Assembly: GCA_032433765.1 (NCBI GenBank)
Contig: JAVIAB010000124.1
Coordinates: 72,713,746-72,777,745, forward strand
Direction: 5' to 3'
DNA: 64,000 nucleotides
Source of the DNA: Megaustenia siamemsis
Taxonomy: Eukaryota; Mollusca; Gastropoda; Stylommatophora; Ariophantidae
Of this stretch, positions 34,490 to 42,700 are shown piece after piece (position 1 is the stretch's first letter; each line of letters starts with the position of its first letter). The translations under genes and the position numbers were made by a program. The notes beneath the pieces were generated by a model, which had not been told where the DNA came from, ran no database searches, and saw only the letters and a list, made by a program, of their open reading frames with translations.

Positions 34490-34705
34490 TTTTTATGACA
34501 TTATCTCATTACCGGGACAACATATAGGACCAGAGAATACATGCTGCTTGCCCTGAGCAGCCGCCACGAAGTGTTTGGGTCTGAGTTTTTATTCCACCAC
34601 TGCTAAAAAAAACTTTTGACTACCAGGATTCGATCCTACCTTCTCCTGGTTTGGGGAACAATAAGTTATCAATTCCGCCACCCGCTGACCTGGTGATAAT
34701 CCCTT
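34490..34705 (-). mobile_element. Candidate tRNA-derived SINE (type 4)
   Basis: The minus strand reads GGTCAGCGGGTGGCGGAATTG (A-box-like), then GGTAGGATCGAATCCTGGTAG, whose GGATCGAATCC fits the B-box consensus, followed by about 130 bp of body. No tail or TSD resolved. A decayed tRNA pseudogene is the alternative. Confidence 0.45.
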
Positions 34706-35050: not shown

Positions 35051-35441
35051 AGGGGTAGAAATTCTAGACTCTTGTGTCTGACAATCGTTGAACTGTCAGA
35101 CTTTGCACAAGACCTATATTGTGTCTCGGCACATGGCTGTGTTCTGGTTGAGTTGCTTTATCTTGGCGAGGGAACTGAGATGCCTGCTGTTGTTGCCTCT
35201 TGTTTTAATGTTATTTTTAGTGTTTCTATAGGTCAGCCTTTTTTTCTTTTACCCTCTGGTTCCCATTTTAAGGCCTGCTTTGAGATTCTTTTGTAGTCTC
35301 TTGTCATCACATGGCCAACATATGACATTCTTCACTTGATTATAAATATTTTTTGATGTTTGTCATTTCTATTATTTCTGCACTAGTCTTGAACTCATTC
35401 CATGATATACAAAGTATTTTCCTCAGGTATCTTTTAATGCG

Positions 35442-35518
35442 GGTGTCCGGTTAGCGCAATCGATAGGCAGTTGGCTTACCACGGCAACAGCCGGGGTTCG
35501 TACCCTGGCGAGGACACC
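35442..35518 (+). repeat. tRNA-like unit 1 of the composite SINE
   Basis: GGTGTCC at the 5' end pairs perfectly with GGACACC at the 3' end (7-bp acceptor-like stem). A-box-like TAGCGCAATCGATAGG and B-box-like GGGTTCGTACCC, the latter in a 6-bp stem with a 7-base loop. The anticodon arm does not fold properly, so this is tRNA-derived and probably not a working tRNA. Confidence 0.7.
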
Positions 35519-35548
35519 TGGGTTTTACTAATTCCCTAAAAATTAGTG

Positions 35549-35626
35549 GGAGCCGCGATAGCTCAGTGGTTAGTGAACTGGACTACTACGGACAAGGGGT
35601 AGGGTTCGATCCCAACCGACGGCTCC
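35549..35626 (+). repeat. tRNA-like unit 2 (type 1 SINE head)
   Basis: GGAGCCG pairs perfectly with CGGCTCC at the other end. A box TAGCTCAGTGGTTAGTG and B box GGTTCGATCCC are intact, so RNA polymerase III transcription is plausible. Best-preserved type 1 head in the window. Confidence 0.85.
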
Positions 35627-36189
35627 GGGTTCACCCAGCCTTAAATGGGTACCGGATTTTTTCTGGGAAAGTAAAGCAGCACGGGCGTAATACCGACCAC
35701 ATTACCCCAAAAATCATGTGCTGAAGGTCTGTAAAATATAGGGTCACTAACACCATATTTCCCTATACGCCACTTGGCGTGACGGGGGGGTACTTTACTT
35801 TTTTTTTTTACTATCTTTTAATGCTTCCAGTTTATTTTCTATTCTTTAGTTGTTTTCCCAGCTTTCCCATGCATAAGTAAGGGTGGATGATATATTTGAT
35901 TTGAAAATCCTAAGCTTTGTTTTGTGCTTAGTAATTTTCATTTCCATATTTTATCAAGGTTTCTGACAATTGCTGCCGTTGCTATTCTGATTCTATTTTC
36001 TTTCTTTGTGTCTCCTTCTTGATCTAAGCAGCTTCCAAGATATACAAAGTGATCTATTACTTCCACTGCCTTTCCTTTAAGGTATATTTTTTCTTGTGGA
36101 CGAATTTGATTTTTCATTACTTTTATCAATCCTTGATTGATCTCAATCCTAGCTTTGAATTATACTTAAAACTATAAACAAAATAAAAA

Positions 36190-42482: not shown

Positions 42483-42700
42483 AAAAGTAATGTACCCCCC
42501 CGTCACGCCAAGAGGCGTATAGGGAAATATGGTGTTAGTGACCCTATATTTTACAGACCTTCAGCACATGATTTTTGGGGTAATGTGGTCGGTATTACGC
42601 CCGTGCTGCTTTACTTTCCCAGAAAAAAATCCGGTACCCATTTAAGGCTGGGTGAACCCGGAAGCCGTCGGTTGGGATCAAACCCTACCCCTTGTCCTTT
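42483..42700 (-). mobile_element. tRNA-derived SINE (type 1), 5'-truncated
   Basis: Body from AAAGGACAAGGGGTAGGG (minus strand) to GCGTGACGGGGGGGTA; the A-box half of the head is missing. A 16-bp TSD, GACTAAACCCCATAGT (42467-42482) and GACTATACCCCATAGT (42701-42716), proves the truncated form is what was inserted. Confidence 0.92.

Follow-up and report, generated by a model that had tools for sequence, protein, structure and literature searches.

A 371-bp element at positions 35441-35811 of the window, the stretch of 64,000 nucleotides analysed here, carries two tRNA-like heads in tandem, and it raises the question of whether these move together as one SINE and how they came to be joined. The first-pass annotation had offered two answers, a dimeric SINE subfamily or the retroposition of a SINE co-transcribed with an upstream tRNA-like gene. 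Its reading of the anatomy is borne out, as a single pair of identical target-site duplications (TSDs) encloses the composite, both units have perfect 7-bp end stems, and the small linker hairpin is present (Table 1). The second unit and the body belong to a family, SINE-1, with six further copies in the window, none of which has head 1, as had also been noted; two of the six (42697 and 54183) are 5′-truncated and could not show it.

Table 1. Features of the two-headed element, in window coordinates
Feature	Position	Strand	Evidence or remark
5′ TSD TATCTTTTAATGC	35428-35440	+	13/13 identical to 35812-35824
SINE-X module, SINE-X nt 1-107 (tRNA-like head 1 and start of SINE-X body)	35441-35547	+	13/20 fetched head-1 matches continue into SINE-X body past position 107
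tRNA-like head 1, 7-bp end stem	35442-35518	+	boxes; fold z-score -4.00
Head 1 end stem GGTGTCC/GGACACC	35442-35448/35512-35518	+	
Head 1 A box; B box	35452-35463; 35495-35505	+	consensus match
"Linker", part of SINE-X body	35519-35547	+	shared with SINE-X copies
TTTT in linker	35523-35526	+	
Linker hairpin ACTAATT/AATTAGT	35527-35533/35541-35547	+	3′ foot exactly at junction
Fusion junction SINE-X/SINE-1	35547-35548	+	19-nt junction word, 3,871 exact genome copies
Complete SINE-1, start (G)GGAGCCG	35548-35811	+	monomers elsewhere start here, several with own TSD directly 5′
tRNA-like head 2	35549-35626	+	boxes; fold z-score -1.44
Head 2 end stem GGAGCCG/CGGCTCC	35549-35555/35620-35626	+	
Head 2 A box; B box	35559-35570; 35603-35613	+	consensus match
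SINE-1 body, TTTAC/T-rich tail	35627-35811	+	alignment with monomers
T6 within SINE-1 body, just 3′ of head 2	35657-35662	+	
3′ TSD TATCTTTTAATGC	35812-35824	+	13/13 identical to 35428-35440

The genome searched was the element's own (G000; 2,591,239,911 bases, or 2.59 Gb, in 155 contigs), and the proposed search for other two-headed copies gave a clear answer. Of 1,031 candidates for the whole element 40 were scored, and all 40 cover its full length or almost all of it at 99-100% identity; the exact 19-nt word spanning the head-1/head-2 junction occurs 3,871 times (1,919 + 1,952), with no match for the reversed-pattern control. A sample of 200 kb, made up of 10-kb stretches taken at 20 round-number positions on 19 contigs, contains matches to the SINE-1 body at 19 places, one of them a dimer (L038); these places correspond to 20 rows, two of which are halves of one interrupted copy, and a few are short or weak. 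TSDs of 7-14 nt, with one mismatch allowed from 12 nt up, flank both heads as a unit in 26 of 28 fetched dimers, and in a second scan (L068 left out) 33 of 35 dimers had an exact TSD, 9-16 nt long. The base immediately 5′ of the TSD is C in 20 of these 33 (background 0.19, P about 2e-7) and the first TSD base is A or T in 31 of 33, a count that may be inflated by T-rich tails extending the TSD; the dinucleotide AC before the TSD is not enriched (4/33, P = 0.13).

The element has the properties of a SINE, being short, dispersed and present in many copies, with TSDs of variable length and defined ends. A dimeric SINE subfamily does exist, and the dimer is a young chimeric family in which the fused unit retroposes as one. 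Over 345 nt, five of the 28 dimers match the consensus without a substitution, one of the five having a 1-nt insertion; because the 28 were chosen for their similarity to the window copy, an age estimate from them is biased young. Three sequence markers are shared widely among 36 fetched dimers, GGCTCC and CATATTTCC in all 36 and CTACTACGGAC in 34; the junction word is exact in 30, and the other six have a changed base at the seam. Because these 36 dimers share markers and the same seam, give or take a base, they are likely to derive from one fusion event followed by the formation of sublineages.

The source of head 1 became apparent from a search with head 1 and the linker (108 nt), for which 40 of 92 candidates were scored, all at 99-100% identity. 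Four of the 40 were dimers already known, and we fetched 20 of the other 36; seven of these are dimers, and 13 share the first 107 nt before passing into a different body (ACCTCTGAAGTCGGAG...) that ends in (GAAC)n. This second family, SINE-X, is about 255 nt long and has TSDs in 11 of the 13 copies, one with a mismatch. A pattern joining its positions 22-35 with 101-114 matches at least 3,051 places in the genome (1,565 + 1,486; control 0). The 200-kb sample contains no close SINE-X copy and has relatives at about 70% identity, and a 21-nt head-1 word has no exact match in viral contigs, a set from which records of its own or a very near genome were possibly excluded. By alignment, head 1 and the linker are the first 107 nt of SINE-X, with the hairpin belonging to the SINE-X body.

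Both heads contain boxes that match the consensus for a predicted internal pol III promoter, as expected of a SINE; head 1 has one mismatch in each box, and head 2 has one in the A box and none in the B box. A transcript beginning at the first base would have the spacing that is usual between start and A box. At least one A/B-box pair occurs in 2.2% of shuffled sequences, and the dimer contains two. The tRNA likeness of the heads lies in these boxes and in the end stems; as tRNAs both heads are weak. ARAGORN at default settings reports no tRNA in either, and the Rfam tRNA model matches neither at E values up to 10. With a relaxed threshold ARAGORN calls a Lys-like tRNA in head 1 (35443-35518, score 69.5) and one in head 2 (35552-35626, score 78.7), and the same run also calls two reverse-strand places with similar scores (77.2 and 67.8). 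Minimum-energy folds of the heads give no clear cloverleaf; that of head 1 is better than 200 of 200 shuffles, that of head 2 is not clearly better, and the first 124 nt of the body (z -0.16) do not fold better than shuffles.

These observations bear directly on the idea that head 1 is a tRNA-like gene with a 30-nt trailer, co-transcribed with a SINE. Head 1 does carry both boxes, has a 7-bp end stem and is followed by TTTT, but the same 107 nt, linker included, open another SINE family that has a body, a tail and TSDs of its own, and the default ARAGORN and Rfam results are negative. We consider this origin scarcely credible and reject it, as the linker proved to be SINE-X body. Co-transcription with an upstream unit is itself part of the likely origin, although that unit would be the 5′ 107 nt of SINE-X including the linker, and not a tRNA-like gene with a spacer.

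SINE-1 monomers begin at (G)GGAGCCG, and 9 of 17 have their own TSD adjoining this start, with none found for the other eight, under lenient rules that allow up to two mismatches and the trimming of a few bases. Among the aligned monomers the one nearest to the second unit of the dimer is L041, which has CTACAACGGAC, T6, AGGG and CATATTTCC; the last of these is also present in the window copies 42697 and 54183. Taken together, the alignments indicate that the dimer is composed of SINE-X positions 1-107 followed by a complete SINE-1, and both parental families are present in the same genome. The suggestion that selection on RNA structure has kept the stems is not supported. In the 28 best copies the heads are changed no less often than the body; these copies are all young, which makes this a weak test. 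The perfect second stem goes with GGCTCC (all 36 dimers), whereas GGCTTCC or a variant of it is usual in the monomers that extend to this site.

We recognised no LINE with a SINE-1 tail in the window, the 200-kb sample or the other examined loci. An RTE-like LINE in L029 seemed to match the SINE-1 body at its 3′ end, but we rejected it as a partner: most of the related LINE copies stop at about query position 1590, short of the matching piece, which looks like a truncated SINE. Protein searches gave reverse transcriptases from many eukaryotes or no match. We also note a different SINE at L047:5640-5860, which combines a different tRNA-like head with much of the SINE-1 body (from about AAATGGGTACCGGA to TACGCC), and there is therefore more than one family with this body.

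How SINE-X and SINE-1 became joined is best considered at a locus where they are joined in another way. Exact-match patterns for SINE-X resuming behind a SINE-1 tail gave one forward match (L069) and one reverse match (L070) in the genome, with none for the control, and L070 is an older SINE-X relative. In L069 a SINE-1 with a 14-nt TSD (TAATTCCCTAAAAA) splits a SINE-X copy at position 102, and SINE-X resumes behind it; the SINE-X copy is itself flanked by a TSD (ACAGGACAACACC), an additional A preceding the element. The insertion is 5 nt from the position of the dimer junction, and its nick, AC^TAATTCCC, fits the target preference of the dimers. With a wider pattern there were five matches, at four places, and L069 was again the sole nested SINE-1 (the three unfetched places were judged from the letters of the match alone). 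Outside the dimer, nesting at this spot is thus seen once, and nesting in the opposite direction occurs at L044.

Because L069 shows a SINE-1 nested in SINE-X so close to the dimer junction, nested insertion followed by co-transcription is the likeliest origin of the dimer, and we infer a nested founder in preference to a template jump. The chimeric family was probably born as follows. LINE machinery would have inserted a SINE-1 monomer into a SINE-X copy just after position 107, and pol III, starting at the SINE-X promoter with the A and B boxes of head 1, would have read SINE-X(1-107) and the nested SINE-1 through to the SINE-1 tail. The chimeric RNA would retain the SINE-1 3′ end and could be copied to new sites by a LINE presumed to serve SINE-1, and the two-headed unit would then have become its own lineage with thousands of copies. 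A founder nick at CCC^TAAAAATTAGT, giving an 11-nt TSD, would also fit the dimer target preference; the fit is weak, because chance alone could readily place a C^A/T site 9-16 nt upstream of the junction.

In its present form L069 is not the founder: TTAGT is missing from its 5′ junction, and its SINE-1 does not carry the dimer markers. It might be an eroded founder, a special case of nesting in which the first TSD copy later lost TTAGT and the dimers later gained their markers. The patterns used revealed no other SINE-1 nested in SINE-X near this site, and at 95.1% over 366 columns L069 is further from the dimer consensus than the fetched dimers are. This reading, however, needs a TSD of 19 nt, longer than all 33 measured (9-16 nt), where L069 now has an ordinary one, and a deletion without flanking repeats; moreover, the L069 SINE-1 has CATATTCCC where all 36 dimers and the three monomers noted above have CATATTTCC. 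We regard it as quite improbable.

An alternative to any nested founder is that reverse transcriptase, on reaching the 5′ end of a SINE-1 RNA, jumped to position 107 of a SINE-X RNA, and that the chimeric cDNA became the master copy. The junction does coincide with the 5′ start of SINE-1, together with an extra G that some monomers share, and lies exactly at the 3′ foot of the SINE-X hairpin; furthermore, exact-match patterns found no locus in the genome with the exact founder structure. There are, though, no shared bases at the junction (SINE-X continues ACCTC and SINE-1 begins GGGAG), and L069 shows that nesting beside the same site occurs, so a template jump seems unlikely, if less so than an eroded founder. 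If instead the founder was nested, as we favour, there would have been at least two SINE-1 insertions 5 nt apart, one of which founded a family of thousands.

Runs of T within the dimer count against the proposed transcription. In a simple word search, 32 of 36 dimers carry T6 directly behind head 2; of the remaining four, two had no match, one returned 2 and one went unscored. Among 22 monomer rows the run is T6-T8 in 12 and T3-T5 in four, and six had no match. In HeLa cells, according to PMC8466645, T5 stops pol III well and TTTT does so at about 65%. By mammalian rules the T6 of the body should be a pol III terminator, and the TTTT of the linker a partial one. Full-length RNA must nonetheless be made, because near-identical full-length copies abound. 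A tentative and rather doubtful joint reading is that SINE-X positions ~97-107 are a recurrent landing site for SINE-1 at which two-headed SINEs are made repeatedly at a preferred seam, the spread of a dimer bearing T4 and T6 implying either that the pol III of this animal reads through T6 or that the RNA is shielded where these runs lie.

The origin of a composite SINE usually has to be inferred when the event is long past. In the present case one genome contains the child family, its two parents and a nested insertion beside the same seam, with many near-identical copies, so that nesting and template jump can be tested against each other. The Twin SINE of Culex pipiens, attributed to Feschotte et al. 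2001, reportedly has two tRNA-related regions in one SINE. The title of the Twin SINE paper proposes a dimeric tRNA precursor (reference entry in PMC3272025), whereas the heads of the element described here come from two different SINE families. Dimeric SINEs are called "quite widespread" in PMC9191728, which also describes Sbg9 of the cockroach Blattella germanica, a dimeric SINE fused from Sbg1 and Sbg8 and judged by its authors to be the youngest of their set. Sbg9 is similar in that both of its parts come from other SINE families of its own genome, but as described there it has few copies; here there are thousands, the upstream family contributes only its first 107 nt, and there is a nested near-replicate locus. 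The Ceph-SINEs and the tRNA-Core and tRNA-Deu SINEs of octopuses, tRNA-derived SINEs of cephalopods described in PMC7708342 and PMC8967140, would be comparable if the present genome is that of a cephalopod. Dimeric and two-family SINEs are already known, and what is unusual is the completeness of the cast of child and parents. A description of a SINE-X/SINE-1 fusion was not found in the literature on dimeric, chimeric, twin and cephalopod SINEs, a scope that mostly leaves aside subscription journals.

Several other arrangements of these elements were observed. One is a reverse nesting at L044:1588-2091, where a SINE-X relative with a different head splits a SINE-1 and is flanked by a 16-nt TSD with two mismatches (by eye). 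A second is a cluster of seven SINE-X matches in about 12 kb at G000:C8:3142585-3154277, all on the + strand, that looks like a tandem segmental repeat. Within the window, the 5′-truncated SINE-1 at 42483-42697 (-) has an 18-nt TSD, ACTATGGGGTATAGTCAA, with one mismatch (by eye) and a body 98% like that of the dimer, and may be either a truncated dimer or a late monomer. Finally, there is an isolated B-box-like sequence, GGATCGAATCC, at 34636 (-), in a possible further tRNA-like unit.
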